From the NCBI GenBank assembly GCA_030295235.1, contig AP026137.1, forward strand, positions 620,001-684,000: a DNA stretch of 64,000 nt, read 5' to 3'. The translations under genes were made by a program, and so were the position numbers. The stretch is from Fistulifera solaris (Eukaryota > Bacillariophyta > Bacillariophyceae > Naviculales > Stauroneidaceae). Below, piece by piece: positions 20,313 through 52,932 of the stretch. How positions within the stretch are numbered: position 1 is the first letter of the stretch; the number at the start of each line of letters is the position of its first letter. A model generated the notes under the pieces. The model searched no databases and was not told the DNA's origin. It saw only the letters and a list, made by a program, of their open reading frames with translations.

Positions 20313-22550
20313 TCACGTTCTTAAATATTTTGTCCATGCTCTCCAGAAGAGGAATACCGAAAAAGGATCACGAAGCTTGAGTGCGTTATACAAGTGAAGT
20401 GTAATTCTCAATTGACCCAATGAATCAATTGTTGCTGATCCCAGATCGATTGAGCAAACATGTGTCGCATAAAGCATAAGTTCTCCTCCAATAAGAGGGC
20501 TCCAACTCGCGACGCTTTCGCTTTTTAAATACTCCAACGCTCGTTTCCGGTCTTTCTGCAGGTGGTGGGAGTTTGCGAGCTTCGCAAGGCTTTTGAACAT
20601 CCGAATATTGTGGTAGAAGGGAGGAGCATTTTCCGGTGTTTTACTTTGATGCGACTCGGCTCGCAATTGCGTGAACAGTGTTCTGTAAGACTCTTTCAAA
20701 CAAAAAGACACGGCAAGCAAGTCCCTCTTTCCTTGTAGCGTAAAACTAGACATCAAAACTGCATGGAGACCGAAGGATAAAGCAGCGGACACTTTTCTTC
20801 CGTGAGGAATGCTGGAGTCTGTCGGAACATCTTTTGTATGTCGCCGCAGCAATTCAATGACTGTAATCAAATGTGGCTTGGTTGGCAAATGATCAAAAGG
20901 TGCTGTATTGCACAGTTGTACCAATCCCGGTAATATGTTGGTGACAAATGCTTCGTCCATGTCACCACGGATGCGACGAGCGGGCCTAATGTTCTCGTCA
21001 AAAGGCGGTCCCCACAATCCGGCAAATGATTTCATCTCGTTTGAAGCGACCGTGAACATCTGGACAAGTTTGTGTGTATTTAGAAGGCAAAATTCACCTC
21101 CAATGTTCTCGCATTGACCAAGCCACATGTGTGATTCAGGTTCAATGAAGAATGCTATCGCAGTAGCCGAGCATCTCATGAAACGTTGTTCGAAGACGAG
21201 AAGTGTCTCCAAAGCGATGTCCGCGCGGATAGCCTCGGCCATTTCGTTGGCGTATTGCGGCTTCACACCTGACTTCTCGGCAAACTCCTTCGCTATCAAA
21301 GGTATTTGAGCAAGTCCAAATCTTCCGTGGAAACAGCACTCCACGATGTCAGCTACAAACGCCAGTGCCATATGAGCTTCTGCTTTGAGGTGGGTCTTTT
21401 TGATGCGCTTGTTAATATCGGCCACACACTCTGTCAAAAACACAAGCGCCAAGACACGGTAGAAAGACGAAAGATGAGGATGATCTAACGCCAACTCATG
21501 CTCGGCTCGGGCCACGGTCTCTGTCGCGACATTTGCAACCATCGCACATTCCATTGCCAATTGCACGGAGCTTAAGGATGGATGCGTGGCTTGACCCCCT
21601 CTCATGTAAATCTTCAAGAGCTGGTAATGATGTCGAACAGTGCCCATTAATTCATCCATTGTATTAAGGAAAGCCACGGCTTGTATTCGATCATCGCCTT
21701 CAAAATAGATTTGATGAATGTCAATCTTCTCCTTCACTTGGACCCCGGTGTATTTGGGCAACTTTCCCTCTTTGATGTTGCTCTCAATTTGCTCGCAATC
21801 CCTTTGTTCATCTTCGGGATCGGGTGTCAATGCATGGAACCTGTTGTCTTTCGTTTCATGTGTTCGATTGTTTTCTTCCTTGTGGACGGCGGTGGCCATG
21901 CGATTCGCATATCGTAGAGCACTGCGACAATACTTCAGCACATCGATGATGTACCGATGTCCGTCATCACCTCCCTTTTTCGACCCGTAGATCCGAATGG
22001 TCAGTTTCTCTCTCAACCGAATACACGTGGCCAAACTGGTCATAATCGCGGGTGGAGCGATGATGAATCTTTTCTCGTTTTTTGCTGTCTTTAAGGAAGT
22101 GTTGGTATTCGTGATTTCTTGCAAGGCCCCCGACTGTTGTTTTGATAAGCAATAAACATTATAATTGTGCTTCAAGATTTGCTGCACACCGTGGCGATAA
22201 TCGTTCACGGCGGACATATTCGACTCGGGGCAAGCCTGCGCCATCCAGTGATAAAAGCGTCCATTGGCTTCTTTATACTGTTCGACAATGGAAGCCTTGT
22301 CATGATTCGTTTGATTGGTTGCTTGATCTGTTGTAACAGTACCATTCTTACTGTAATTCGGTACATTATCTGCGGAAACTACGTCGTTATTCGCTCGATT
22401 GGACGCGTTATCGGCGGCCACTGTGTCATCATTCAGTTGATGACGCGATGCATTAGAGAGTGAGTTCGGTACGCCTTGCGTCAACGCCTTCGTCGCAATG
22501 CCTTGCTTGCGGCTCTTCTTCTTCTTCTGTTTCTTTCGCTGATACCCCAT
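20313..22550 (-). CDS. Large DUF6604-like helical protein
   Basis: A single exon of about 745 residues. I start at the ATG at 22550 (MGYQRKKQKKKKSRKQG) because upstream codons in the frame lack an ATG. After a lysine-rich, probably nuclear-localising start and a repetitive N/D-rich stretch (motifs near TDQATNQTNHDK), a segment near residues 85-190 (YKEANGRFYHWMAQACP, later APPAIMTSL) resembles DUF6604, a domain described mainly in fungi and also seen in diatoms. The rest is alpha-helical without known motifs. The role is unknown. The N-terminal repeats are visible in DNA near 22290-22450. Confidence 0.6.
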   Translation of the reverse strand: MGYQRKKQKKKKSRKQGIATKALTQGVPNSLSNASRHQLNDDTVAADNASNRANNDVVSADNVPNYSKNGTVTTDQATNQTNHDKASIVEQYKEANGRFYHWMAQACPESNMSAVNDYRHGVQQILKHNYNVYCLSKQQSGALQEITNTNTSLKTAKNEKRFIIAPPAIMTSLATCIRLREKLTIRIYGSKKGGDDGHRYIIDVLKYCRSALRYANRMATAVHKEENNRTHETKDNRFHALTPDPEDEQRDCEQIESNIKEGKLPKYTGVQVKEKIDIHQIYFEGDDRIQAVAFLNTMDELMGTVRHHYQLLKIYMRGGQATHPSLSSVQLAMECAMVANVATETVARAEHELALDHPHLSSFYRVLALVFLTECVADINKRIKKTHLKAEAHMALAFVADIVECCFHGRFGLAQIPLIAKEFAEKSGVKPQYANEMAEAIRADIALETLLVFEQRFMRCSATAIAFFIEPESHMWLGQCENIGGEFCLLNTHKLVQMFTVASNEMKSFAGLWGPPFDENIRPARRIRGDMDEAFVTNILPGLVQLCNTAPFDHLPTKPHLITVIELLRRHTKDVPTDSSIPHGRKVSAALSFGLHAVLMSSFTLQGKRDLLAVSFCLKESYRTLFTQLRAESHQSKTPENAPPFYHNIRMFKSLAKLANSHHLQKDRKRALEYLKSESVASWSPLIGGELMLYATHVCSIDLGSATIDSLGQLRITLHLYNALKLRDPFSVFLFWRAWTKYLRT

Positions 22551-23029
22551 CTTCAATAGAGGGCGGCTGGAAGAAAAAGTTTTAACTAACGCAGTCACCT
22601 ATCAATCAAAATGCCAAGCAAAAAGTGACGAAGGTCGTTCGCGGTTTTTCCTCAAGATGCGACATTTTTCGTGTTACTCAACAATGTCTTTTTCTGTAGG
22701 TTTACGAGGAGCACGTTTTTTTGTTAATTAAATCAGGTCGCAAATACATCAAAATTCAAACGGCTCAAAGTCGTTGGATGACGTATTGTTCGGGAATGCT
22801 TTTACGATTAGAATGACGTCACGTGCGCGGAGTTCGTTCGAAACGAGGGTGACTTTTAGACTGGCGATGAATGTAGCTCGTACACGTGGCTACGTAAAGG
22901 CCACGTACTCGTGGCTTTTCGCGTTTTCCTCCACAAAACCGCTCGCGAACGGCCGCGAAGCGCAAAATCGGTGTTGCAAGTGTTGCTTGCCTTTGTTGTT
23001 TCTACTTTACCTACTTCCTTCTATTCGCC
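22551..23029. promoter_or_regulatory. Divergent promoter region between DUF6604-like gene and CobW gene
   Basis: A 479-bp divergent intergenic region. It holds TGACGTCA at 22814-22821, immediately followed by CGTGCGCG, and CACGTGGC/CCACGT motifs at 22883-22910. These are CRE/G-box-like candidates for bZIP factors. No ORF is supported. Confidence 0.4.
22814..22821. promoter_or_regulatory. CRE-like palindrome TGACGTCA in divergent promoter
   Basis: A perfect octamer within TGACGTCACGTGCGCG, combining a CRE with an overlapping CACGTG G-box. Its place in a short divergent promoter makes it a better candidate than the other two octamers in the window. Confidence 0.35.
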
Positions 23030-33573: not shown

Positions 33574-34113
33574 GTTGTTGGGGTGGTTTCATAGCTATGA
33601 ATAACGTAAATTCACTTTGTTTGTTGAAGTAGAAGACATAAATTATGAGGTGAAGTAGGCGCTCACTAATTACTCTGGCTAGAGTCGACTTTAACACATC
33701 GACGTCAGCGAAACGAATGAAGCAACCGAAAAAGTTTTGTCGAGGAGCAAATTGGACTTTTTGCAGTATAGGACAAAGTGTATCTTGTTTCCTATGTCCA
33801 ATTTGAGGTTCAAAGACACTTTCGGAGAAAGACTATAAATTAGAATGTAGAAAGGTCATAGTGATGATGAACCTTGGTACATTTCGTATGAGATGCCATT
33901 TCCGATCGGCATAATCGGGCACTGAATGACCGGCGAATCTGGTGGGAGAAATAAGTCATCGGGGTCGGGGCACTTTAGCAAAAAGCAAAATCTCCGAAGC
34001 CGACTTTGTAGGATGCACTGCAACAACAAGAAGAAAAATATCACCCATTGCATCCTTTACTTCGTTTCCGGTGATCAGTGCACAACTTTAGCTGCTGCAA
34101 TAGGCATTATATC
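33574..34113. other. Intergenic
   Basis: 3' flank of ATP sulfurylase and 5' flank of the PhoD-like gene. TATAGGACAAAGTG and AGACTATAAATTAG are seen, but no gene. Confidence 0.35.
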
Positions 34114-37100
34114 ATGGCAGGCAGTCCTCATGACTACGACGAGGATGGCAATCTCAAACTGCCGGCCTACTATGGAAAAAGCAATCTCGCGATGTTGTTT
34201 GTGTTCATGCTGATGGCTGCCATGGGAACAAGTATGCGCTTAGCCAAGCGAGACTACAATCGATCAACAGAAGGGAATTGGATATTAGCTGGAGCTTTAA
34301 CTTCGCAAAGTGTCCAATTTAAAGTGCGCTTGAATGGAAACTATGGGCAGCGATTCCTGGTTTCCAAGGAACCCATCGAGGAATATCAGGAGGGTTCGCC
34401 TTCATATTTAATGGATGCTCCCTTGGAGAGCTTATTTACTCAACCGGACCCATCACAAGATTTTCTTTTGTACGGCTTAGAGCCTTCCCGAAAGTACTAC
34501 TACGCACGAGTAGCACCAACCTTTGATTTGCTTCATCAGGGCTCTGTGCAAACGGCTCCACCGGACAATGTTCGATCGAATTTTACGTTTGTAACCACGG
34601 GAAGCGCATTCACAGGTTCGCAGAATCCAGTCTTCGAGGAGATGGCGAAGGAAAATCCCTTGTTCTTTTTGCAGCTAGGCAACTTGCACTATGGAGACGT
34701 CAACGGTGACTTGGAGACGCGCATGAAATTTCTGGATCAAGTCATGGGAAGTACAACACAACAGCAGCTTTACACTCAAGCGGCTTTTAGCTACATGTGG
34801 AATGATCGTGATTATCTGGGTGACAACACACTTGGTGATGAGCCCGGACGAGAGGCCGCGCTCGAAAGTTACAAATTTGCCATTCCCTCCCATCAACCAC
34901 CAGAAGCTCCCCTTTATCAAGCTTACACGATCGGAACAGTGCGATTCATCATATCTGACTTGCGTTCGGAAGTTACTGCAGATAGCATCATGTCAGATAC
35001 GCAGCGGGAGTGGTTGAAAACAGAGCTATCGAAGGCGGAAGATTATGACTTTGTGATTTGGGTGACGCCGTCTACATGGATGGGTGATGTTGATTTGACG
35101 CAGAACGACTGGACAGGACGCCCGGCGGATCGTGTAGAATTTTCGAAGTTCATCTCAGCATTACCCAGCCAAAATATTCTTGCTTTGTCGGCTGGTACGG
35201 AGATGTTCGCCTTCGACGACGGCTCTCATACTGCGCAAGGGAATTTCAGCCAGGGTCAGACAGTAATGTCGTTTCCGCTTCTAATGTCTGGACCAGTAGA
35301 TCGATTGGGTCGAGTCGTCGACGCGCGCTACTCGGAGGGATGTTCAACCTGGCTTTATGAACGCAACCATATTTATAGTGTCATTGATTTCAGAGAAAAT
35401 GAAGAAACCTTCGAACCATGCCTTCGCGTTCGCTCCTACCGCGTGACAGACGTGATTGGTGCGAAAGAGCTTCTTCTGGAAAAAGAAATGTGCGGGACAA
35501 TATTTAGTCCATTAAATAAAGATCCGGAAAGTGGATCATGTCAAGCGGAAAGGTTTAGCTCAAATGTTGAGTTGATGGCTACCACTGCTGTGGGCTTACT
35601 CGCTGCGAATGTTGTTTTGGTGTTCTTTGTGGGAGACGGATTCATCGGTGGTATTATTATGATGATCATGACACTTCTTGGTGTAATTGCGACTAGTGCG
35701 ACAATGAGGTACCTGCCATCCTTCTCATACAATGTCGATCAGTATGAGGCTTTCGTTGTCGCCTTGATCCTGAACGTCCAGCTCGGTTTGGAACTATTGT
35801 TCCTTCTCTGCTGGGCGAAGTTTCACCACTTTATCCGTACTAGTGTCAGAAAGGAAAGGGATGCAGCGGAACCTAATGCTAAAAAACCGAACAACTGGGT
35901 AGAACCCGATGTGGAAAGCAACTACCAATCTGTCCAAAATACTGGAACGTATGATGCTGAGGATGATGACGAAGAGAACGACCAATTTCCTGAAGCTACT
36001 AATGTTTACATGATTCCAACACTCGCCAATTCTCCTGCTTCTAGCAGGTCAATGAAGTCAATGAGGTCAATCGGCAGTTTAACCTTGGAAAAATCTAAAT
36101 CCGTTCCGTCTCAATTGACTGAAAGACCGTCAAAACCGGAAGGAATTTCGGAATCTACTACAGAAGGAAGGTCAAATCTTACAGGAGCTTCGAACTCCTT
36201 TCATAAATCAAAGTCGGTCCCATCACGTATGACTGATGAGCGTCTTCAGCCAACCGAGACCGCCGCCGGAATGGGGTCTCATAGTCGTTCTGCTGATCAA
36301 TCCAGTGATTTCGGTGATACGCATCCATCACAACCTCCACAACGTTCACAACCAGCAACTTACTTACCCGAGAGCAACTTTTATCTCCGTCCTGCTTCAC
36401 GAAACCAGACAACAGCTCCTCGGCAGGAACATTCATCATCATTTACACGACGTGCTCGACCAATGGAGCCTACCACGACCAATTATGCACAGCCCTTCAC
36501 AAAGAGTCGGAAGAAGCGCGATTCATCCCTCTTGGCGCTTGCGGCTTTGATTCAGGAGAATGCGATGCGAACAAGTGATTCGCCACGAGGAAGAGATCCA
36601 GAGCCTTGTCAAGATGGTGCTCCGAGAGTTCCTTTGGGGCGTGGTCTGACAAGTCCTGGAGACGCCATGAGTGACGCCTCGTTCCAATCCACCTTTGAAA
36701 CTGAGGAGGAAAGCATGAGGAATGATGCTGTCGTTGATGCTACTTTTGACCCAGAGGCGGATGGACTAATTCAAAACGAGTCAGACGACGATCTTGAAAC
36801 GTCTTCCGACGATGACTTACCTTCTGTCACTACATCGGACGAAACATTTGACAAGAACTTCAAAGCGCAAAGTGGTGTGCATTTGGATCCTGATGAGGAT
36901 GGTTTAAGCGATGACGATGCTTCCGTGGAGAGTGCAGCTAGTAGTGTAGGGAGTTCTTCGGATCAAGATAATGCAACTACGAACAGTCGGCTCGATCCCG
37001 AAGAGAGTCTGATGTCACCAGAAGCCGAGAGCGAGTCCAGTGGTACCGAGAGTGTGTCTGAGGAGGCAAGCACGGCTATGGACACAATCAAAGGTCGTTT

Positions 37101-37935
37101 AGAGCCGGGTGACTACTTGATACAGGCAGAAAATGAATGCAGTATGGCAGAATTTGCAATGGATAATGAATTCACCGATGAGTCAGAAGAGTCTGCAGTA
37201 GGTAGTGAAACGTCAGAAGATTCGACGTTCGAAAGGATGTTGAATGCCAGAGAAGCTCCTCCTGTGCTGTCTGATGAAGGGGGAGACAATGGATTGATCG
37301 AAAGCGGTGAAGAAGCTGATGACGACCAATCTGTTAACTGCTCGCCCACTGCTTCCCGGGAAAAACGAACTCGAATGGAAGAGCCACCCGACCAACTTAT
37401 GGATCCCCGAGATCTTGAAGAAGAGGATGATCAAGCTGAAATGATTAGTAGCGATAATGATGAGTCGGCCAAAAGCACTACGTCAGGAGAAGATCCGACC
37501 ATCGTCACCGATGATGATGGCAGCGAGGTAATAAAAACCGTTGATGATGGCAGCGAGGTAATAAAAACCGTTGATGCTGAAGAGTTTGCGGATGAAAGCG
37601 GATCGGCGGTCATCGATCTAGAGTCCGTCTCCGATCAAACATCGAGTGGAAACTTAGATCTGGGAGCTCCTGTGACAACACGTGCCGACGCGGCCGCCAT
37701 TACTCCGGGAAAATCCGATCACGACACGGATGACGCCACCATGAGCGTAGATGAGGAAAGTTATATGGAGGAGCCTACTTTTAAGTCGGAAGAAATGGAA
37801 ATCACTTTTACTAAGAGTGAGTCGGCGGACGAAGATTCTGTCGTTCCTGACAGCGAGGCCAGCTTTGAAGAGCATATGCGTCGCAGTTTACATCCTTTTC
37901 CGGAATCCCCACGGAGAATTGCCGTCGATCCCTAG
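34114..37935 (+). CDS. PhoD-like membrane protein with degenerate metal site and long acidic tail
   Basis: A single exon of 1,273 residues; the ATG at 34114 is the first in frame. Residues 28-48 are a signal anchor (LAMLFVFMLMAAMG). Residues about 60-470 follow the PhoD/calcineurin-like phosphatase pattern: fibronectin-like N-domain, then LQLGNLHYGD (186) where families have GDxHY, MWNDRDYLGDN (227) where families have WDDHD, and ISDLRSE. Two expected metal ligands are thus Asp to Asn and His to Arg, so activity is doubtful. Three membrane segments lie at about 487-570. Residues 575-1273 are a Ser/Asp/Glu-rich, probably disordered cytosolic tail with an exact 30-bp in-frame repeat (37513-37572). 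Possibly a cell-surface or vacuolar sensor rather than an enzyme. Confidence 0.75.
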   Translation: MAGSPHDYDEDGNLKLPAYYGKSNLAMLFVFMLMAAMGTSMRLAKRDYNRSTEGNWILAGALTSQSVQFKVRLNGNYGQRFLVSKEPIEEYQEGSPSYLMDAPLESLFTQPDPSQDFLLYGLEPSRKYYYARVAPTFDLLHQGSVQTAPPDNVRSNFTFVTTGSAFTGSQNPVFEEMAKENPLFFLQLGNLHYGDVNGDLETRMKFLDQVMGSTTQQQLYTQAAFSYMWNDRDYLGDNTLGDEPGREAALESYKFAIPSHQPPEAPLYQAYTIGTVRFIISDLRSEVTADSIMSDTQREWLKTELSKAEDYDFVIWVTPSTWMGDVDLTQNDWTGRPADRVEFSKFISALPSQNILALSAGTEMFAFDDGSHTAQGNFSQGQTVMSFPLLMSGPVDRLGRVVDARYSEGCSTWLYERNHIYSVIDFRENEETFEPCLRVRSYRVTDVIGAKELLLEKEMCGTIFSPLNKDPESGSCQAERFSSNVELMATTAVGLLAANVVLVFFVGDGFIGGIIMMIMTLLGVIATSATMRYLPSFSYNVDQYEAFVVALILNVQLGLELLFLLCWAKFHHFIRTSVRKERDAAEPNAKKPNNWVEPDVESNYQSVQNTGTYDAEDDDEENDQFPEATNVYMIPTLANSPASSRSMKSMRSIGSLTLEKSKSVPSQLTERPSKPEGISESTTEGRSNLTGASNSFHKSKSVPSRMTDERLQPTETAAGMGSHSRSADQSSDFGDTHPSQPPQRSQPATYLPESNFYLRPASRNQTTAPRQEHSSSFTRRARPMEPTTTNYAQPFTKSRKKRDSSLLALAALIQENAMRTSDSPRGRDPEPCQDGAPRVPLGRGLTSPGDAMSDASFQSTFETEEESMRNDAVVDATFDPEADGLIQNESDDDLETSSDDDLPSVTTSDETFDKNFKAQSGVHLDPDEDGLSDDDASVESAASSVGSSSDQDNATTNSRLDPEESLMSPEAESESSGTESVSEEASTAMDTIKGRLEPGDYLIQAENECSMAEFAMDNEFTDESEESAVGSETSEDSTFERMLNAREAPPVLSDEGGDNGLIESGEEADDDQSVNCSPTASREKRTRMEEPPDQLMDPRDLEEEDDQAEMISSDNDESAKSTTSGEDPTIVTDDDGSEVIKTVDDGSEVIKTVDAEEFADESGSAVIDLESVSDQTSSGNLDLGAPVTTRADAAAITPGKSDHDTDDATMSVDEESYMEEPTFKSEEMEITFTKSESADEDSVVPDSEASFEEHMRRSLHPFPESPRRIAVDP
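37513..37572 (+). repeat. Exact 30-bp direct repeat in coding sequence
   Basis: Two perfect copies (37513-37542 and 37543-37572) encode two identical ten-residue DDGSEVIKTV units in the acidic tail of the PhoD-like protein. This is a recent slippage-type duplication. Confidence 0.9.
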
Positions 37936-38570
37936 AGGAGTGAACACATTATTGTAATTACCGGTGCACAGGACCTCTTTGAAATTAGATTGTTGTTAGT
38001 TCTACACGGAGCGTTTGTAGGCTGAAGCTAGGATTTGGTGCCTCATTGCAGACACGGGACGACAACATTTGCCGTCGGACCAAGTCAAGAAAGAAACTTT
38101 GCTGGCCTCGACGTTTGATTGAATCACTTGCGTTAAAGTAAGCGGACTAGTTTCTAGCTAAAGAAAAACTAACATCTCTTGTTGGAAAAAGGTTGGTCAA
38201 GATGGATCCCTTGAAGAGGAAAAGCCCCGAAAACTAAACTTTGCTTGGGAAACAAGGTTTGTACATTAAACGCGGTGTCAGTGTCCCGGTGCGCTATCTA
38301 ATGTCTTTCACTATCTGTTATTATGTAGGGGGTGCCGCGTTTCGAAACCGCTCCTTTAGTTCGAGAGAGAACGGCAACGAACACGAAACACGTTTTGCAG
38401 CTTAGCGGTACTCAAGAGTGTACTGCTTTACTGTAGAAAATCGGAGATGCGCGTTGGGATCTTCCCATCCAAACACAAAAACATCGACGACATCCATCAA
38501 CCTCGACAGGAAGCACCCAGAAAAGTATCAAACGGGGATCATCATTATTCTTTCAACTCAACACTCCAAG
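37936..38570. other. Intergenic
   Basis: Between two plus-strand genes. No supported ORF; the frame from 38418 lacks an ATG before 38571. Confidence 0.35.
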
Positions 38571-40954
38571 ATGACTATAATGCATCTCGTTCGTCCCACG
38601 GCGTTCTGGCTGTGGGCATTGTGGATGCTGTTCGTCGTTCCCATTGATGACTGCGACGCGAAAGCCGTTGCTACCGAAATGAACGTCGATGGAGCTTCTT
38701 CTCTTCCCGAGGAGTCGCACAAGAAGCACAAAGACGATGAGAAAGAAGCAGAAGATGATCCCGGTATTCCCTTTCTTCATTTCCTCGCACACGATACTAC
38801 CATGACATGTACGGCAGACGAACACGCCCGTCCGTTCAACAATCAGATTCGTGGTGTCAATTTAGGAGGATGGATGGTCCTCGAACCATGGATTACCCCC
38901 AGTATCTTTTACCAATTTCTCAATGGTGGAGAAAATACCACCGCCTTTGACATGTACACCTTCTGTCAAGTTCTCGGTCCCGACAAAGCCAACGAACAAT
39001 TGCGTCGTCACTGGGATCGGTGGGTCACCAAAGATATCGTTCGGCAGTTGGCCGAGTCGGAAGCTGTCAATAGTTTGCGATTGCCGTTGGGCGACTTCCA
39101 ATTTGTTCCGTACGGTCCGTATGCCACGGGCTGTGTCGATGGAGGCTTGGAATATGTCGATCAGTTGTTGGATTGGGCTTACGAATATGGATTGACGGTG
39201 TTGTTGGACATTCATACTATGAAAGACTCACAAAATGGTTTTGATAACTCGGGACAAGCCATGGGTTTTGCTTGGACGTCGTCGCTCAACTCGGAATTCG
39301 GAGGATTGACGACGTTTCAACATTGGCCCATCCGTACGGCCAACTGGATCGGGACCTTCAATCCACAAACAGCACAGTATGATAATATCAACCAGGGGAA
39401 TATTCAGCACGCGCTGGATGTTATTCAAGCGGTAGTCGATCGGTATGCAGGTCATCCGGCAGTGTTGGGTCTGGAACCACTCAATGAACCATGGCAGTAT
39501 ACGCCGATCGATGTACTCAAACGATTTTACTGGGATGGATATTTGATCGTCAAGAAAACGGCACCCTACTGGAAGTACATTATGCATGATTCATTTCGGT
39601 TGGATACGTCTGTATGGGGAGGATTTATGGACGGCTGCCCGGAACGTGCGTTGGATACCCACATCTATCAGGCATGGCGTGATCCAGATTCACGTGTCGG
39701 ATTTTATTCCGATGCTTGTGCGCAAAAGGCGCGCCTGGCGGATATGGAACAAGCTTTTGGCCCTGTTATTGTGGGGGGAATGGAGTTTGGCGACGGACAA
39801 TTGTGGTGAGTGATTCTTGTTTCGTCGTCAATTCGTGTAGGGGTTTCTCTGTTCATTAGATCATCGCCTTATTATTATTTCGTCTCGGTCTATAAGAATG
39901 TACTCACACACTGCCTCTTCGCAAACTTTCTGTTTATATTGTAGCCATGTGGTTGAATGGATTCAACGATAACTTGCCTGGTTTCCCGCGTCTACCCTGT
40001 AAATATGAACCCTGTCGCACATCTTATTTGGCACCGGAGCAACCCGGTACACCGCTAGATAACTCCAAACCGTTGCAAGGTCCTTTTGGAACAGGATTGT
40101 CTGGCCCTATCTTTGGTTTGTGTCCCAATACACGTGACTGGTTGAAGGAATCCAGCGGAGACCCCTTTACGGGTCGAGATTGGATCACAGCACCCCCGAA
40201 AGCGCCGAAACAGTTGGACGACACGGATGATGTGATGCGCAATCTTGCTTTGAAAAAGTTGGACGCCTTTAGTGGCATCGGTCATGGCTTCTTCTTTTGG
40301 AATTTTCGAACGGATCTTTATGAGCCACAGTGGTCTTATATGGAAGCCCTGGACCGTGGATGGATTCCTCGGGGTAATTTGAAGGATGAGAAAGTCAACA
40401 CAGCCTGTTCTCGAGAAGAGAGTTCCGTATACTACAAATGCGTACTGAAACGAGGTCAAGTTGATAAAGCTGTCAGAAGCGCTTTGGCGTACGCCTTGAA
40501 CGTTGAAAACAAAACAAACTTACCAGAAAGTCAGGAGATGCTCAACTTGACGGGTCAAGCTTTGCACGAGGCCGCCGAACAATTTTTGGGAGATTTCTTC
40601 GATGATAATCGACACAATGGTGCGACCTGCGATTTCGGTGGCGTTGCCATGCTGATCCGCCGAAACGAGACATTGTCGGATCGATCTAGTTCGGCCTATT
40701 ACTACAACGATGATGAGTACTTTCAGGTTGTACAGGGAGGTCCTTCTCTGTGGATTTTAGTTGTTGCAGGGATGGCAACCGCATTGGTTGGCGCTCTTAT
40801 GGGATTTGTGGGAGCGATGAGATCCAATCAAGGATTCAACCGTCGTGTTCGAGAATCGCGAATCTTCCGCCCGCTTACTCAATCTTCCAACAATTTGATC
40901 CGAAGTTCCTTAGCGTTGCCTGATTTGCAGTACGAGGAGATCCTGAAGGTTTAA
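38571..40954 (+). CDS. Membrane-anchored GH5-type exo-beta-1,3-glucanase, one frame break
   Basis: Exons 38571-39805 and 39945-40954 (139-nt intron, GTGAGT...TTGTAG) give about 747 residues. N-terminal signal or anchor (FWLWALWMLFVVPI), then NQIRGVNLGGWMVLEPWITP, which opens clan-A exo-glucanases. Acid/base glutamate is in LEPLNEPW (about residue 305). The nucleophile segment GEWSLATDNC is only read after removing one G from the G6 run 39773-39778; the annotated frame otherwise ends at the intron. Exon 2 begins CAMWLNGFNDNLPG, as expected. A C-terminal helix (LWILVVAGMATALVGALMG) anchors the protein. Likely role: trimming beta-1,3-glucan such as chrysolaminarin or wall callose. The break is probably an error. 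Confidence 0.85.
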
Positions 40955-41054: not shown

Positions 41055-43490
41055 CTACTTGTCTGCTTTTCCGTCGAGTACCGCGCTTTGTACGTTATAC
41101 GTCTGCCAAAGCTCTATGAAATCGTCCGCGCTCATTACTTTCACCCCAAGGCTTTCCGCTTGCTCTAATTTCTTCCCGCCCTTGTCGCCCGCTACAACTA
41201 AGTCGGTTGATTTACTGACACTTCCTGGTGTCGATTTGGCCCCCAACGATTTCGCCATCTCTTGTGCCTTAGTTCGCGACATGTCTGGCATTGATCCTGT
41301 AAAAACAACGCTCCAGCCTGCGAATGGTAGATCCGCAAAGTTACCCGACACAGGCTGCGTGGAAACCGTACTCGAGACATCGTGGACTTTAACTGATTTC
41401 GCGAGTGCACGAGCTGCCCTAACCAACTCTTCTTCCTGGCCGAAACTAATCAGAGCATTTATTACCGCAGGACCAATCCCTTTCGTTGCTTCGTTATCTT
41501 CGAAAAGTACTGTAAGGCAGTCATTCTCATTCGAATTGCCAACTTTTTCAATATCATCGAGAAAAGAATCGACTTTACCGTATAAACCCGCCAGCAACGT
41601 GGACGAATGAACTCCAACAAACCTGATGTTCAAAGAGTAAATAAACCGAGATAAATCAACACCCTCATTGGCAATTTTGTTAGCTGTGGTCACTAAATTC
41701 TGAGCTGATTTCGGACCCCATGACTTCAATGCGGCTACTGTTTCTGTAAAATGTTCGGGCCGAGCAAAGAGATCACTTGGAACTTTCAAAAGACCGGCTT
41801 CCATAAGCTGTTCTATTCGATTTTGCGACAAACCTGTCACGTCAAGAGCGTCCCGAGAAAATGCGTGACTCAAAGCCATCACAGCTCGAGGAGGGCATAG
41901 CAGTGCCGGTCCACCACATCGGAGAACGAAGCCTCGGTCGTAGTTACCAGTCCACTCCCGCTCCGCCACTACTATAGAACCACATGCAGGGCAGCTTGTT
42001 GGTGCCTCCAACGATATAGTGCCTTGTTCATGATTATTCACTTCGCCAACAATCCCTACAACCTGTGGAATCACTTCTCCAGCCCTCCGCACCATGACGC
42101 TGGTTTCCCTGGGTATCGATTTACCGCCCAATGTCTGCTGAAGATGGCGGAAATTGTGCAGCGTAGCACGCTGTACCGATACTCCATTCAAATCAATCGG
42201 TTCCAGTATAGCAACTGGCGTAAGCGACCCGGTTCGTCCAACTTGCACGGTCACATCCAATAACTTTGTGACTCCAACACGTGAAGGGAACTTGTGTGCC
42301 ACAGCCCATCGCGGTGCACGATTCGAGTTTCCGAGAACAGCACGAAACAAGGCTTCATCGACTTTGTGAACACACCCATCCATCTCGTAATCGCCCCATT
42401 GCCACGTCGAAGAAGCATTCTCAGAACCTTCGCGATGTTTCATCAAAGACTGATGATAACCCAGTAAATTTGTGATGTCAGTTTCATTCCATTGCGTCTG
42501 ATCATCTAAAATTGACAGTGTCGTCGAAATCGTTGGTTGCGGTGTACAAAAGCCCAAATTCAAGAGTACTTTTAGCGCTTCTTGACCGTCCAACTTGCGC
42601 TCACTACCAAGATCCAGGTCGTAGGCGTAAAACGATAGCTTGGTGGCCCAATTTTCATCCTCTTGCTCACCGGATGTTTCCTTGCGCAGCAATATACCCG
42701 ATGCCGCATTGCGCGCGTTCGAAAAGTTGGCGCGAATTCCTTCCTTCTCAAACACCGATTGCGGCAACACGACTTCTCCTTTGATTTCAATGGCATCGCC
42801 GGACAGCGGTAACGAAGCGGCGTCCAAAATCTGCGGAATCGCGGGACAGCGGCGCACCGCATGGGTGACATCAATGCCTTGCTTGCCGTCTCCGCGCGTC
42901 GCGGCCCATTGCAGTTCCCATTGAGTGGACTGTCGTGTGTAACGCAGATTTAGTGACAAGCCATCGATTTTGGGTTCCGTCGTAATAGTCACTGTATCGA
43001 CTTGGCTGTTCACTAGCTTTTTGCGGATTCGTTCGAACCACGCCAGCAATTGGGTTGTATTATGGACATTTTCGAGTGAAAGCATCGCTTGTCGATGCTT
43101 TTGTTTGACTCGGGCAGTTGTCAAAGGCGTGGTACCGACTCGTCCCGCTCGCGTGGTTTGTGCGCCCAGGTTAACCTCCTTTTGTAACTTTAGAAGTAAA
43201 TGAGGATATTCTTGTGACAACGCTTCTTCGCGACGTACGAGCGCATCGTATTCGTCGTCGCTGATTGATGGGTTCTGCGGATTGTTGTAATATCGTTCTT
43301 CTTGTTTTCGAATTTCATTGCTCAGCCACAAGAATTCCTGGTAAATTGCATCGCTGGTTGTGGAAAACAATCGGCTGGTCGGCGGCATTCTGTGGCGATG
43401 ATGCACCATCTGAAATGCGCCCGCCAGGAATCGCTTCTTCGTCGCGGACAACATGATGAATGCCAACGAACACAACCACCAGACGTGCAT
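41055..43490 (-). CDS. ligA: NAD+-dependent DNA ligase, bacterial LigA type, with organelle leader
   Basis: A single exon of 811 residues; I use the ATG at 43490 because the upstream codon is TTG. Domains in order: Ia-type start (YQEFLWLSNEIRKQEERYY), adenylation site TEPKIDGLSLNLRY (Lys about 175), NARNAASGILLRKE, OB fold (VQVGRTGSLTPVAILEP), four-Cys zinc finger (CPAC...RC...LCPP, about 500-532), helix-hairpin-helix repeats, and a C-terminal BRCT (about 710-800, WSVVFTGSMPDMSRTKAQEM). The leader MHVWWLCSLAFIMLSA...FLAGAF resembles a diatom bipartite plastid signal with AGAF. Eukaryotic nuclear ligases use ATP, so this is a bacterial-derived organelle enzyme. The frame is intact. Confidence 0.93.
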   Translation of the reverse strand: MHVWWLCSLAFIMLSATKKRFLAGAFQMVHHRHRMPPTSRLFSTTSDAIYQEFLWLSNEIRKQEERYYNNPQNPSISDDEYDALVRREEALSQEYPHLLLKLQKEVNLGAQTTRAGRVGTTPLTTARVKQKHRQAMLSLENVHNTTQLLAWFERIRKKLVNSQVDTVTITTEPKIDGLSLNLRYTRQSTQWELQWAATRGDGKQGIDVTHAVRRCPAIPQILDAASLPLSGDAIEIKGEVVLPQSVFEKEGIRANFSNARNAASGILLRKETSGEQEDENWATKLSFYAYDLDLGSERKLDGQEALKVLLNLGFCTPQPTISTTLSILDDQTQWNETDITNLLGYHQSLMKHREGSENASSTWQWGDYEMDGCVHKVDEALFRAVLGNSNRAPRWAVAHKFPSRVGVTKLLDVTVQVGRTGSLTPVAILEPIDLNGVSVQRATLHNFRHLQQTLGGKSIPRETSVMVRRAGEVIPQVVGIVGEVNNHEQGTISLEAPTSCPACGSIVVAEREWTGNYDRGFVLRCGGPALLCPPRAVMALSHAFSRDALDVTGLSQNRIEQLMEAGLLKVPSDLFARPEHFTETVAALKSWGPKSAQNLVTTANKIANEGVDLSRFIYSLNIRFVGVHSSTLLAGLYGKVDSFLDDIEKVGNSNENDCLTVLFEDNEATKGIGPAVINALISFGQEEELVRAARALAKSVKVHDVSSTVSTQPVSGNFADLPFAGWSVVFTGSMPDMSRTKAQEMAKSLGAKSTPGSVSKSTDLVVAGDKGGKKLEQAESLGVKVMSADDFIELWQTYNVQSAVLDGKADK

Positions 43491-43620
43491 TCTCAATACT
43501 CTGTAATCATGAGTTCTTTATTTAGTTACTTTTGTTGTCAAAGGAAATAGTTTCAATGACATTCAACACACAGTGCGAGCTGCGCTGCGAGCCGCCTTGT
43601 TGTCGTTTCCCTCCAATCGC

Positions 43621-44778: not shown

Positions 44779-47700
44779 ATGGGTCGCAAAAGAAGAACAA
44801 GTCACCGTTGAAGTCGCCTACGGCGGCTACCGCGGCAGCAACACCGGTCGCAGCCGAAGCCGTGGATATCGTAAGTGCGCGCTATCGCTGCCTCATTCGT
44901 TTGACGTGTCGATAGCTGCTGACCCTTTACTTTCAACAGATTACGGGCAAAGCCACGCTAGAGTATTATTTCGATCCTTCTTTGATACTTAAGGAGAATC
45001 AGGGAAGCATTGGTAGACAGCCACTGAAAAATGGAGCGGGTAGTTCTACGAAAACCCCGGATCTTTCATCAAAGTATTTATTCGTTCCTTGCACAATTAT
45101 TAAACCGCTCGACGAAGAAAACAGTCAAAAAGCACCGGAAAGGTCGATGGACAACCTTTCCCTGGTCCGACGCTCGTCAAGACGATTGACGGTGTTTTGC
45201 ACAAAATATCGGATAGCACGAAACTCATTCCAGTGACGGCGCCGGATGATCATGAAGGAGTTCATGATGTCTTGAACCTTCCACAGATTAGCGAAGCGAG
45301 TTTGCTGCATACACTCCGCATCCGATATGCCCGCAATGACATTTACACTTCCGCGGGTCCTATTCTTATTTCGATTAATCCCTACGTGACGGTCAAACAA
45401 AGCGACGGGCAGTCGATCTATTGTGAGGAACGCATGCTCTTATATCGCAATCGAACGGATTATACGACGGGATCCAAGACACCTCATTTGTTTTTAGTAG
45501 CCGATCGAGCCTACAAGGCGCTCATGGACTCGGTGCATTCGAGTAGCGAGATGGACCATTTGGAAGATGAAGATGCGGTCATGATGCTCGAATACCACAA
45601 ACCGCCGGGAACCGTTCGCAACCAGAGCATCATTATCAGTGGAGAGAGTGGTGCTGGAAAGACGGAAGCGACGAAAATTATCATGGCGTATTTGGCGCGG
45701 ATTACGAAACGCGACAGTAAGGCCAGTTTCAATTTAGACGGAACCATGATTGCTACTCTGGAAGATCGTGTGCTGTCGTCGAATCCGTTGTTGGAGACGT
45801 TCGGGAATGCACAAACGTTGCGGAATGACAACTCGTCTCGTTTTGGAAAGTACATTCACATTTACTTCAGTACAGTCACGGGAGCCATTACGGGTGCGTC
45901 CATTTCCAATTACCTTCTGGAGAAAACTCGAATTACTTCGCAAGTAGACGGTGAACGCAACTATCATGTCTTTTATCAACTGCTAGCCAGTGCTGACCAA
46001 GAAATGTTCCATGAATTCGGGTTGCAAGGGGGTTCATCGTCTTTCAATTATCTTGGACATCGCATCACTGATAACGACATTGCGGATCAAGAAGGGTTCA
46101 AACAGACAATGGCTTGCCTTGCGGAGATTGGTGTTAGTGCAGATGACCAAAAGGCTCTTTTTAAGACAGTTGCCGGTGTTCTTCATCTCGGAAACATCAA
46201 ATTTGAAGAGCACGACGATCCGAGCGAAAGTTTCACCGAAAGCATTGGAAAGTGTCGAGTTTCGGACAAGTCACGACCAAGTCTACGCACGGCTTGCGAG
46301 CTACTCGGCCTGAACGAGGCAAAGCTGGAAGATGCTATTTTGACGAAAGTGATTGTGATCAATGGAAAGTCTATCAAAAAGGCCCAAACTGTTCCAATGG
46401 CCGAGGATAAACGCGACGCGCTTGCCAAAATGACGTACTCTTGCCTCTTTTTGTGGCTCGTTCATCACATCAATTTGTCGCTGAATCAAGCGTCTGAACA
46501 GACTAAGTCACTACAGAAAGATCAGATTGGTTGTATTGGTGTCTTGGATATTTATGGCTTCGAGACCTTTGACGTTAACGGCTATGAGCAGTTACTCATC
46601 AACTATTGCAATGAAAAACTTCAAAGCCACTTTAATCGCCATCTGTTCGAGGTTGAGCAGAAGCTTTATTCTGACGAAGGTGTCGATTGGTCCTACATTA
46701 CGTTCAATGATAATAGTCCCTGTCTTGAACTAATCGAAGGTGGAAATGGAATCGTTGGGATTTTGAATACTCTTGACGACGCTTGGGGTGGAATGGGAAC
46801 AGCGGCTGAAAAAGATTCCAAGTTTGCCGCTCATCTCCACAGACTCTTCGGCAAGAGCTCTGAACTTGACACAAGCAAGGAAGGCGATAGCCGTCGAAGT
46901 CACTACAAACATTTCATCACCCCGAAGATTGGACTGGATAAGAATTTCATCATCAAGCACTATGCCGGAGAAGTAAGTCCGGGGAGCCTTTTACTCTTTG
47001 CCTTTCCGCATTGATTGTTTGACTCACGTGCTTCGGTTGCCAGGTTTGTTATAATGTTGATGGCTTTGTTGAGAAGAATATGGAGACACTGAGCAAGGAA
47101 CTCAAGGATCTAGGAGATAGCTCATCGAGCCCATTTTTAAAAGCGGTGTACTCTGCTGCTGGTGTTGAAGTGCAATGCTCGACGGCGCAGCGTTCTTCGA
47201 TTCGCGGATCCAGTGTAAGCTGGCAGTTTCGAACGTCTCTTCAGACACTCGTATCAGACCTTGAAAGAACACAGCCTCACTATATACGGTGTATTAAGCC
47301 AAACAATTCTAAGTTGCCTGGAGCTTTTGCATCTGCTGACATTCTGAAGCAATTGAGATATTCAGGAATGATGGAAGCAATTCGAATTCGTCGAGAAGGT
47401 TACGCTCTCAGGGAAGAACATGAAACCTTTTACAAGAGATTCAGTCTTCTCCTCGGATACGACAAAATCAGAAAGGGTGAAGGGGGGATAGTCGAGCTTG
47501 TCAGAGTGTTATCCAGTCTTCTCTGCGTTACAGATGCAGACTGGCAAATCGGTCACTCGAAGATATTTGTGCGAAGAGTCCTCGCTGACAAGTTAGAGCG
47601 GCTTGCGAAGTTGAGGGTCCATGTAGCGAGCAGGATCTTAGGGCGGTTCGGCAGACGAGTGGCAAAACGCCGCACTTCTCAACGAATCGCTACCTGGATC

Positions 47701-50700
47701 CAATTTCGACTTCATATGCGAGCTTATTATCGCTCTCATAAAGGAGCCAAAGTGGTATCGGCCACGTTAAGAATGTGGAAGCAACGGAAATCGTTTTTGC
47801 TGATGAGAAGAAGCGCAGTTTTAATTCAGGCTCACCAGCGGCGTCGGCATGCATCCGTGATTGCACAAAGGATCCGTGACCCTTTCTTTGACCTGAGTTT
47901 AGCCGAGTGTCGGTCCCTCTTACAGCAGAAGGAAGCCACCTTAGAAGCGGCTGTGTCCAGTAACGACTTTCAGTTAGCTGCCACTATTGAGTCGGAAATG
48001 TAAGTGCTCTGAGAAACGATCAGTACTCGCTTAGTACCTCTCTAATGTATCTTTTATCTTTTCCGATCAAAAAAGTGTCGAAGTTAGAAAAGCCATTTCA
48101 GACAAGCGTCCGCTTACTCGAGCAGTACTGGAAGAACGAATAGCTAGTGTTGAAAAGCGAATTAGCGAGGCCATCGAACGCAAGGCATACGGGGACTGCG
48201 CTCCATTGCAGTCCCAATTAGACGAATTAATTTCAAAACGGTTGGATTTGCCGACAATGAATGAGCTAGAGGATGAAGTTCAAAAAGCAGATAGAGGCTT
48301 GTCGGAGGCCGTTAAAGGAGAGATTTTGCTGGTGCGGCTGACTACCAGCAACGACTTGACAAGGCAAAGCAACGGCTGCAAAATGTGGTACAAAATATGG
48401 ATCCAGACGAGGTCGTTGAAAATAACAATCCGAAGAGCGGAACACATGATTTGAATTCATTTGAAGGTCGCTTCCAGCTGGATGAAGCTATTCAACGCCT
48501 AGTTGAGCAACAGAGAACGAAAGTGAAAGATAAGGACTTTCAGGGCGCGTCTTTGCTGCAAAGTGAAGTCGACCAACTTGAGAATATGAAGCAATTTTTT
48601 CCATCAATCGACGAACTGGAGCGTGAAATCAAAGGGTTGAAGATCATGTTGGAAGACGCGGTGAAAATGAAAAATTTCGAGTCAGCTGGGAAACTTGATC
48701 TTGACATCAAAGAAAAAGAAAAAGAAGCTGGAAAGGGAACTGACGAACAGACCTGACATGAATAGGTTGACCGCTACCTTATCGGATGGGACGACGCTGG
48801 CATTTGAAAGTCGCGCCAAACTCGAAAAAGAAATTCAGGCGAAGTCATCTTTGCAGTCGGAATGCGTGCTAGCAAAAGACTTCGAGAAAGCAAAAAGCTA
48901 CCAAGCTGATATGGATAAACTTACCGCCCTTCGTACTTTTCTGCCCAATAAAGGCGAACTTGTCAAACAGATTTGTGAAACCAAAGCGGAAATCGAAAGT
49001 GCCATAAAGACGAAGGATTTTTCAAAAGCGGATAAACTGGGTCGAAAGCTTGAAGCACTTGAGAAGAAAAGCGTCGAGGAGGAATCGCATGAGGTTACTA
49101 TCAAGGACGTTCCACTTACTGCTAAAGCAGTCTTATCAAGAAAAGGTTCTTCAACGTTAAACGGGGTTGCAAGACTTCGATCAAGTGAGGTTTCTGTACG
49201 GTCAGCTAATGCAAAAAATAATTCAGCTCAAAGTGCTAGCATTACACCATCTGCGGCCGCCACTCCTGGCAATCTCGGACGCCCTTCCACCATTCCGTCC
49301 ACTAGCTACAAATCCGTCGCGAAGCTGCGCCCCGCTGTGCCCCTAACAGGAGAATTAGATGAGTCCGTATTGGCAATCATCAAGAATATAGCAGCAAAGC
49401 GTGCGAACTCTGCTGTCATTATTGATAGCCAAGGAGGTCTCGCAGGAATCATTACCGATACCGACATCACTCGTCGAGTTGTAGCGAAGGACGTAGACCC
49501 CGCCACAACGAGCGTTGCCAAAGTAATGACGCCCAATCCCACGTGCGTCTCTCTAAGCGACTCAGCGTTAGATGCACTTTCGACCATGGTCGAGAATCGT
49601 TTCCGTCACCTTCCCGTCATCGACAGCGAGGGTTCCGTGGTCGGTCTCTTGGATATTGCCAAGTGTTTGAACGAGGCCATTTCAAAGCTCGAAAAGATCC
49701 AAGAGAAGAATAGTAAGAGCACACAGGATGTCGTTAGCCAGGTGGTCAGCCAACAAGGAGCCGGCGGTGCCCAGGCAGCTGCGTTGCAAGCGCTACTTGG
49801 GACTTTGATGAGTCAAGCATTTGGGACGCAATCGGCACCTACTCTTCGCAGCGTATTAGCAGGAAAGCCTTGTACGATTGTGAATCCTGATACTTCTTTG
49901 TATGATGCGGGCAGGTTGATGGCGGAGAACCGCAAGGCAGCATTGGTGGTTGATGAAGCGAGCGGAGAGTTAGTTGGGATCTTTGGTTTCAAAGATATGA
50001 TGAATCGGGCAATTGCAAAGAGTTACCGTTGGCTACGACACCAATATCCGAAGTAATGACTCCAAGTCCAGAATTCATGTCACCGGAGAATACTGTTCTC
50101 GAAGCACTTCAGACAATGCACGACAACCACATTTTGACGCTCCCTGTTTGTGAAGCCAGCGGTCAGGTGGTCGGGCTTGTGGACGTGATGGATGTCGTTT
50201 ACGGTTGTGGAGGCGCAGATGGATGGCGGTCTATTTTTAGCAGCACCATGGACTCCCAAGATGATGTTTCCGATGTAACTTCAGTCCGCAGCAGACCTGA
50301 GTCTCAACAAATAGCAACTGAGCGCCCCATGGCAAGTTTACATGAGTCCTCTGGCGAGCATCCCGTTTCGATGCTTCGTCCAATGAAGCCTCTTCTCTCG
50401 ACAGACCATGATTCTGTCCTAAATGTAGCTCAGTTTCTAACTGCAAAGAGAGGCGTTGCGGCCCTCATTACCAATTCAACTGGGGGGTTGGCGGGGATTG
50501 TCACTGACACGGACATTACTCGGCGTGTTGTCGCTATGGGTTTGTCCCCTGCCACAACCGAGGTCTCAAATGTTATGACCAAAAATCCGGCATGCGTAGC
50601 AACGACGGATTCGGCAATGGACGCATTGACTATCATGGTCGAAAACCACTTTCGTCATCTTCCGGTTGTCGACAGCGACCGTTCGATAATTGGCGTGATT

Positions 50701-52932
50701 GATATTGCCAAATGTTTAAGCGGCGCAATATCTTCATTAGAAAAAGCCCAAGCAAAAAGTGACAACAAGGCAAGGGAAACGATCAGTCACATTATGACTC
50801 AGAATGGTGTCGATGGTACTCAATCCGCCGCAGTGCAAGCCCTCTTAGGATCTCTTGTTTCTCAAGCCTTTGGCAACAAAGCGTTACCCACACTCCGTAG
50901 TATCTTGACCGGGAAGCCAAGGACGGTAGTTGGCCCTAGAACATCCATTTTCGAAGCTGCAAGAGCTATGGCCGAGAATCGAAAAGCCGCACTGGTTGTT
51001 GATGAAACGACGCAGTCCCTTGTGGGAATTTTCGGATTTAAAGACATGATGACTAGAGTAGTGGCAAAAGAACTGGATCTTGAAACGAATTCTGTTTCTT
51101 CTGTCATGACCCCAAACCCCGAGACAGTTTTACCTGATGTCTCTGTCCTTGAAGCTCTCCAAATGATGCACGACCACCACTTTCTCAATCTCCCCGTCTG
51201 TGATGCTGATGGTACCGTGGTTGGTCTCGTGGATGTAATGGATGTAATTCATGGCTGTGGAGGCGCAGATGGATGGAGATCTATTTTTAGCAGCGCCATG
51301 CACCTTAGAGGCGACGATGATGATGACCGGTCGGTTGCATCCTCCTCTGTCCACAGCATGGGGCGCTCAGTGAAGTCGAAACTTTTACCAGTAGCGAAGA
51401 AGCACGTATCCGATACGACGGTTGAGAAATTGAGACCATCGAAACCTATTCTGACCGACGATTCAAGCACAATCTTAGCCGTTACCCAAATTATCAAAAG
51501 CAAACGAGGGTCGGCTTCTATCATTATCACACCAGCAGGCGAGTTGACAGGAATCATCACCGATACCGACATCACTCGTCGAGTTGTAGCGAAGGACGTA
51601 GACGCCGCCACAACGAGCGTTGCCAAAGTAATGACGCCCAATCCCACGTGCGTCTCTCTTAGCGACTCAGCGTTAGATGCACTTTCGACCATGGTCGAGA
51701 ATCGTTTCCGTCACCTTCCCGTCATCGACAGCGAGGGTTCCGTGGTCGGTCTCTTGGATATTGCCAAGTGTTTGAACGAGGCCATTTCAAAGCTCGAAAA
51801 GATCCAAGAGAAGAATAGTAAGAGCACACAGGATGTCGTTAGCCAGGTGGTCAGCCAACAAGGAGCCGGCGGTGCCCAGGCAGCTGCGTTGCAAGCGCTA
51901 CTTGGGACTTTGATGAGTCAAGCATTTGGGACGCAATCGGCACCTACTCTTCGCAGCGTATTAGCAGGAAAGCCTTGTACGATTGTGAATCCTGATACTT
52001 CTTTGTATGATGCGGGCAGGTTGATGGCGGAGAATCGCAAGGCAGCTTTGGTGGTTGATGAAGCGAGCGGAGAGTTAGTTGGGATCTTTGGTTTCAAAGA
52101 CATGATGAATCGGGCAATTGCAAAAGAGTTACCGTTGGCTACGACACCAATATCCGAAGTAATGACTCCAAGTCCAGAATTCATGTCACCGGAGAATACT
52201 GTTCTCGAAGCACTTCAGACAATGCACGACAACCACATTTTGACGCTCCCTGTTTGTGAAGCCAGCGGTCAGGTGGTCGGGCTTGTGGACGTGATGGATG
52301 TTATTTACGGCTGTGGCGGTGCAGATGGATGGAGATCCATTTTCTCGAAAGCTATGGAAATTGACGAATCGACAGCATTGTCCGTAGAGGGATCCAATCT
52401 GGCACCAAGTAGTCGAATGTTTGAGTCGATTTCACGCCCCATGGCGGCGAAGGTCAAGCTTCCTGGAAATATCCCATCAACATTGGAATTCGTTGACAAC
52501 GATGTGAGTAGCGCGATGGACGATAGAGGAATGTCGAGAGTTTTTGGTCCAGAAGATGGGAGCGAATGCGGCGACTTGAAGGGTACTTTCAAGATTACAG
52601 ACTCAAAAGGACGTACACATCGAATCCGTTGCGAGCTCAAGCGTGGTGCTCTGGCCACAGCCATTTCGGAGAAGGCGGAGATAGAGCTCGACGGCTTCCA
52701 GGTTCAATATACTGATGAAGAAGGAGATTCGGTGGTTATTACCAGTGACGAAGATGTAGGGGAAGCATGGGCGGCCGCTCAAAAGGCTGGCAACAAAGTT
52801 GTTAAGCTTGATATGGTCTTCTTGACGAAGAAAGCCAACGGTCCCGATAGTCTGCTTTTGGCAGCCGGTGCTGTCTCGCTAGTCGCAATCTGTGCTTCTG
52901 CGTTTTTTGTTCTTAATCGCGGTAAAAAATAA
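44779..52932 (+). CDS. Giant myosin with UVR-like repeats, 12 CBS motifs, PB1 and C-terminal membrane anchor (class XXIX type)
   Basis: About 2,650 residues. Introns: 44871-44939, 46973-47043, 48000-48075. Motor: P-loop GESGAGKTE, switch I NDNSSRFGKYIH, switch II DIYGFETFDVNGYEQLL, actin region ERTQPHYIRCIKPN; then basic IQ-like segments (47590-47860). Next come about six 50-residue helical units of the form A(V/I)xxxDF..A (47910-49070), three blocks of four CBS motifs (49350-52340), a PB1 domain with YTDEEGDSVVITSDEDV (52560-52830) and a tail anchor (52850-52920). Frame breaks: 45127-45131, 48314-48316, 48719-48723 and 50017-50019; at the last, the sister block has four A where this has three. 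The start at 44779 needs one more G; the alternative ATG is 44538. The architecture matches stramenopile class XXIX myosins. CBS pairs may sense adenylates; the cargo membrane is unknown. Confidence 0.85.
49443..50193 (+). repeat. CBS block copy A, near-identical to 51548-52299
   Basis: About 750 bp aligned at a constant offset of 2105 (2106 after 50019) with roughly seven substitutions and one missing A. The intervening block (about 50380-51300) is far more diverged. Points to recent duplication or gene conversion. Confidence 0.9.
51548..52299 (+). repeat. CBS block copy A', near-identical to 49443-50193
   Basis: Partner of the preceding repeat. It keeps the reading frame through GCAAAAGAG (52120-52128), where copy A is one A short. 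Confidence 0.9.

Follow-up and report, generated by a model that had tools for sequence, protein, structure and literature searches.

The window analysed here, a stretch of 64,000 nucleotides (contig C17:620001-684000 of a 51.7 Mb genome assembly in 61 contigs), carries a large myosin gene on the forward strand at 44779-52932. By its architecture this would be a single gene for a stramenopile myosin of class XXIX, functional in the cell and broken in the assembly by single-base errors, from a diatom whose genes occur in two homeologous sets; as judged from sequence, the probability of this reading is roughly three in four. The gene comprises four exons separated by three GT-AG introns (44871-44939, 46973-47043 and 48000-48075), and the intron sites of its homeolog on contig C18 are identical in position. 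The limits given in the first-pass annotation, which had been made from the letters of the window, hold: the start codon (ATG) at 44779 falls opposite an open start in the homeolog, and the gene ends with a stop codon at 52930-52932. The gene and the features of its protein are as follows.

44779-44870 (+): exon 1, which holds the start codon and, as assembled, shifts frame near 44789; the homeolog is open here
44940-46972 (+): exon 2, with an N-terminal extension and most of the motor (Myosin_head, 495 bits); frame change near 45126
47044-47999 (+): exon 3, with the end of the motor (to about 47574), a neck with degenerate IQ motifs and the first helical repeat
48076-52932 (+): exon 4, with helical repeats, linker, CBS blocks, PB1, C-terminal anchor and stop; frame changes near 48316 (common to the homeolog), 48713 and 50016
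47896-49096 (+): UVR-like helical repeats, about seven, roughly 45-50 amino acids each, counted by eye
49097-49330 (+): fast-evolving linker, with a ratio of nonsynonymous to synonymous substitution (dN/dS) of 0.79
49331-50250 (+): CBS block 1, four CBS motifs, from Pfam and motif order
49443-50226 (+): homogenised tract of block 1, about 784 bases; its counterpart in block 3 starts at 51548
50371-51291 (+): CBS block 2, four CBS motifs, sharing ~61-64% of its nucleotides with either of the other blocks
51430-52344 (+): CBS block 3, four CBS motifs, from Pfam and motif order
52585-52809 (+): PB1 domain from Pfam, with an acidic DEEGD...DED motif and a first-strand lysine seen by eye
52849-52914 (+): hydrophobic C-terminal segment, likely a tail anchor, followed by NRGKK

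The motor is matched by Pfam Myosin_head in two exons with 495 and 128 bits (cut-off 33.3), and its signatures can be recognised by eye in exon 2, namely the P-loop GESGAGKTE, switch I NDNSSRFGK and switch II DIYGFE. A comparison with the PDB returned myosins II, V, X, I and VI (best 60 of 150 matches), which does not place the class. In the tail, Pfam CBS is found in 3 + 9 stretches at E ≤ 0.5, with twelve end-motifs in a 3 x 4 order; at E ≤ 0.001 alone, nine of the 12 are retained in a six-frame search of the window copy, and nine CBS stretches likewise pass in the scanned pieces of the homeolog. The PB1 domain scores 41.2 bits within the tail and 46.7 bits when scanned alone (cut-off 23.6). 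The best 19-residue hydropathy, 2.39, is reached at the end of the tail, just before the short basic terminus. The motor, the 12 CBS motifs, the PB1 domain and the hydrophobic C-terminus had all been claimed in the first-pass annotation and are borne out by these searches. Its remark that the architecture agrees with class XXIX is supported as well: the published definition names three IQ motifs and short coiled coils, a PB1 domain together with as many as 18 CBS domains, and a transmembrane domain at the C-terminus (PMC2375034). Since the architecture is that of the published definition, it has been known since 2007, when the class was found in all stramenopile species then sampled (PMC2375034). 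Class 29 is also listed among five diatom myosin classes in a 2024 paper; by its account the functional characterisation of diatom myosins had been lacking until then, and its own work concerns class 51 (PMC11420354).

Genome-wide searches often returned gene pairs on neighbouring contig numbers, and such paired gene sets fit an allodiploid diatom such as Fistulifera solaris, for which 42 homoeologous chromosome pairs are described (PMC5935921). Pieces of the window align with C18:534001-584000 at 81.6-91.8% DNA identity, and the two copies of the myosin gene are ~90% identical. Comparison of the copies corrects the first-pass claim of continuous coding: the printed sequence shifts frame five times without an intron (near 44789, 45126, 48316, 48713 and 50016), through single-base breaks that the earlier frame analysis had missed. 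Ten codons after the ATG, the printed frame runs into a stop, as seen by eye. The homeolog has six frame changes of its own, at places matching 46026, 46376, 47469, 48087, 48316 and 52122, so that the break near 48316 is the sole one common to both copies.

These breaks could be real mutations in a decaying pseudogene, as five of them in the window copy, six in the homeolog and a shared one near 48316 might suggest, but this is very unlikely. Coding exons differ between homeologs by nine indels in 7,938 bases, every one of a single base and none of 3 bases, against 14 indels in 563 bases of non-coding sequence, and the break positions differ between the copies with one exception. A Nei-Gojobori script, with the frame taken from the window copy and gapped codons skipped, gave a dN/dS of 0.114 across 2,620 codons, and not one stop codon was met among these 2,620 codon pairs. 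By part, the values are 0.056 for motor exon 2, 0.016 for CBS block 3, 0.075 for PB1 and 0.031 for the anchor. Most of the length of the myosin gene is under purifying selection.

Genes elsewhere in the assembly are broken in like manner. For this control, joints between six-frame matches were counted by a net size of 1-2 bases; a count by gap size was not used for frame breaks, as it would have taken in the window's own intron. The chains are our own grouping of the six-frame matches and the counts are therefore approximate. Among HSP70 chains, 9 of 21 frame-changing joints were of net 1-2 bases, in 7 of 26 chains; among myosin chains, 7 of 19 were, in 6 of 26 chains, with the C18 homeolog itself contributing two of the seven joints and one of the six chains. 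A second control is contig C60, which carries four photosystem-II-family genes and, as it also holds two RuBisCO large-chain matches, looks like plastid sequence. The longer photosystem gene, which we take to be psbB, occurs there twice in opposite orientation (97675-99175 and 208992-210491); both copies are broken at different places, with three joints of net 1 base, and the second photosystem gene is open in both of its copies. C60 seems to hold two copies of the plastid sequence with single-base errors.

The frame breaks of the myosin gene are thus most likely assembly errors, because the coding indels are of single bases only, dN/dS is 0.114 and some HSP70 and psbB-like genes are broken likewise. 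The dN/dS value, the sizes of the indels and the control on the plastid-like contig all speak against a real frameshift or pseudogene, which was rejected. No canonical -1 slippery heptamer was seen by eye near 48316 (codons GTT AAA GGA), where a programmed frameshift nevertheless keeps some probability. For users of the genome, this means that single-base errors may interrupt gene models of the assembly.

A different division of the locus would place a myosin ending near 48 kb beside a separate, tail-anchored CBS-PB1 protein of the CBSCBSPB/Mug70 type. The first-pass annotation had named transcripts ending near 48 kb as the case that would refute it; the homeolog indel and dN/dS data disfavour such a split. 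Stand-alone CBS-PB1 proteins are known from several kingdoms (PMC7051960, PMC2694836), and the junction region at 48719-49330 evolves fast. Against this, the homeologs show no indel in 48716-49330, where the non-coding rate predicts 15.3 (Poisson 2e-7), and in both copies the frame is open there over some 205 codons. The repeat regions upstream of 48716 have dN/dS values of 0.109 and 0.276. The intron at 48000-48075 has conserved splice sites at both ends, and the definition of class XXIX itself unites the motor with the CBS-PB1 part. A pair of genes is accordingly very unlikely, and the first-pass view of one gene running from the motor to the C-terminus is supported by the indel-free junction and by the class definition.

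The three CBS blocks of the tail follow one pattern. The motifs TDTD, DIAK, GFKD and DVMD stand in the same order in all three blocks of the window copy, so that every block has Asp/Lys/Asp/Asp at the usual ribose-binding position. In CBS domains generally, Ser/Thr-x-x-Asp is the usual ribose-position motif for adenosine ligands; each block here has the full motif once in four, Asp alone twice and Lys once, identically in 3/3 blocks. Distant PDB matches that share CBS motifs with the blocks include MJ1225, a protein with four CBS motifs, and AMPK gamma-1, the latter over short stretches only. The order of acidic and basic positions (Asp/basic/Asp/Asp) resembles that of AMPK gamma-1. It is plausible that the blocks bind an adenosine-type ligand and sense the energy state of the cell. 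They could instead be structural spacers or oligomerisation modules to which no nucleotide binds, a possibility of real weight that falls short of even odds. In keeping with it, three of the four motifs in each block depart from T-x-x-D, and a search of a collection of open-access papers turned up no study of a ligand, or of a cargo, of class XXIX; nor did a text search of PMC5583752 bring up class 29 or CBS. However, the four-motif pattern has been kept in all three blocks even though block 2 has diverged to ~61% at the DNA level, and T-D-T-D and R-R are invariant across six block rows.

Blocks 1 and 3 have stayed far more alike. Within each homeolog their identity is 98% across some 800 bases and 91-92% for the block as a whole; inside the sharply bounded tract (whose limits were chosen after inspecting the block identities) they differ by 1.9% in the window copy and 1.1% in the homeolog, whereas outside it they differ by 50-52% (134 sites). 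Inside the tract, the homeologs differ from one another by 8.4-8.5% at each of the two blocks. The most simple account of the alignments is concerted evolution of blocks 1 and 3, separately in each homeolog, by gene conversion. As the assembly is error-prone, the near-identity might be suspected of being an assembly artefact, but this is improbable: it is present in each homeolog separately, each having variants of its own (59 concerted sites), and the flanks keep their orthologous differences (56 sites), the tract holding 58 of the 59 concerted sites and four of the 56 orthologous ones.

The acidic loop and the first-strand lysine of the PB1 domain would together allow self-association, and a recruitment of the motor through PB1 is plausible. 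A genome-wide search for PB1 at E ≤ 0.001 returned the myosin homeolog pair only (two matches); at E ≤ 10 there were five matches, i.e., three beyond the pair. The idea that PB1 is unique to the myosin was dropped when the latter search revealed a homeolog pair at C36:643501-651500 and C37:590401-598400. It has half a PB1 domain, which with 18.5-18.7 bits falls short of the cut-off, and near it a ZZ finger at 32 bits (cut-off 21.4), and is p62/NBR1-like in this combination. The half PB1 and the ZZ finger, which lie in different overlapping open frames, may form a single gene, and an intron probably splits the PB1 domain. A possible C-terminal UBA domain was seen by eye in this pair; Pfam reports no UBA there at E ≤ 1. 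The remaining match, on C34 around 269178, was rejected as a PB1 because its frame is ubiquitin-like (ubiquitin 23.9 bits, cut-off 25.4; PB1 16.4). That frame overlaps one for a WLM (Wss1-like) protease with 111.7 bits. Among the five candidates scored, the C36/C37 pair is the sole other likely PB1 gene detected, with the limit that PB1 genes split by introns may be missed.

At the C-terminus, the strength of the hydrophobic segment is modest, its hydropathy maximum being reached by 33 of 500 shuffles of the 969-residue tail piece. The anchor reading is supported by the position at the very end together with conservation (the homeologs differ by one amino acid in 33 codons), and not by hydropathy alone. 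A terminal anchor may also be shared with CBS-PB1 proteins.

Various observations weigh against the reading of the locus given at the outset. In the neck, Pfam IQ matches two stretches at E = 1.3, below cut-off. The helical repeats between neck and CBS blocks have, by eye, a K-x-K-D-F-like core, and the UVR family matched three of five pieces at E = 0.27, 6.9 and 5.3 and the other two not at all, the best score of 11.5 bits remaining below the cut-off of 21.5; a profile of ten repeat copies matched the UvrB C-terminus at E = 0.19, with three unrelated chains (0.014-0.14) ranking ahead of it. The first-pass label "UVR-like" is fair in view of such sub-threshold UVR and UvrB matches, but a UVR identity is not established. 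Constraint is weak within 48719-49330, where dN/dS is 0.59 and 0.79. As to the frame breaks, a net 1-2 base joint is absent from 20 of 26 myosin chains and 19 of 26 HSP70 chains, and an assembly error is less certain near 48316, where the break is common to both homeologs. Because Ser/Thr is missing from three of the four ribose motifs per block, ligand binding may be partial or absent. Finally, an AlphaFold model of block 3, PB1 and anchor has a mean predicted local distance difference test score (pLDDT) of 43.1, is of low confidence except at roughly residues 1-115 and does not show the anchor as a helix; given this confidence, no structural claim is drawn from it.

A tail-anchored, nucleotide-switched and PB1-clustered motor can be proposed tentatively, although as a whole this mechanism is less likely than not. 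The myosin would be anchored by its tail in an organelle or vesicle membrane, with the motor and the CBS/PB1 parts in the cytosol, and would move or tether that membrane on actin. Motor and membrane would be kept apart by the helical repeats and the linker. Each four-CBS block would form two Bateman pairs, in which adenosine-type ligands at the Asp positions would change the shape of the block. PB1 could cluster motors by self-association or link them to a PB1 adaptor. By way of ligand binding, the nucleotide state of the cell would then switch the clustering or activity of the motors. A bolder, rather improbable extension makes the tail a triple AMPK-gamma-like sensor on a membrane-anchored motor. 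Its PB1 would dock on the ZZ-finger, p62/NBR1-like receptor and so couple actin-driven organelle movement to selective autophagy and to nucleotide state, with gene conversion keeping blocks 1 and 3 alike while block 2 stays distinct. The sequence offers testable points in the fixed Asp/Lys/Asp/Asp pattern, the concerted blocks 1 and 3 and the short list of PB1 partners.

Compared with class XXIX as defined by Odronitz and Kollmar in 2007, the gene shares the motor, neck, helical or coiled parts, multiple CBS motifs, PB1 and a putative C-terminal transmembrane segment, whereas it has 12 CBS motifs rather than up to 18, its helical part is read as repeats, and homogenised CBS blocks such as these go unmentioned in the accessible part of that paper (PMC2375034). 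CBS and PB1 are common to the tail and to the CBS-PB1 proteins of plants (CBSCBSPB), fungi (Mug70) and chromists (PMC2694836, PMC7051960), the last with PB1 at the carboxy terminus (PMC7051960); in contrast, the accessible text on these proteins names no motor, and the tail here has three blocks of four CBS motifs. The p62/NBR1 autophagy receptors have PB1 in common with the myosin and are a candidate type of partner, not relatives of it. Some novelty lies in the detail on the CBS blocks and in the possible PB1 partners, the architecture being already described.

Elsewhere in the window, the neighbour of the myosin gene at 41058-43496 (-) encodes a bacterial-type DNA ligase dependent on nicotinamide adenine dinucleotide (adenylation domain 149, OB 84 and BRCT 46 bits), in a region that aligns with the homeolog on C18. 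An open frame of 1285 amino acids at 34078-37935 (+) has no Pfam match at E ≤ 0.001, and one at 20316-22598 (-) contains DUF6604 (46.6 bits). A match to glycosyl hydrolase family 5 (Cellulase) lies at 38418-39806 (+), with 30.8 bits, above the cut-off.

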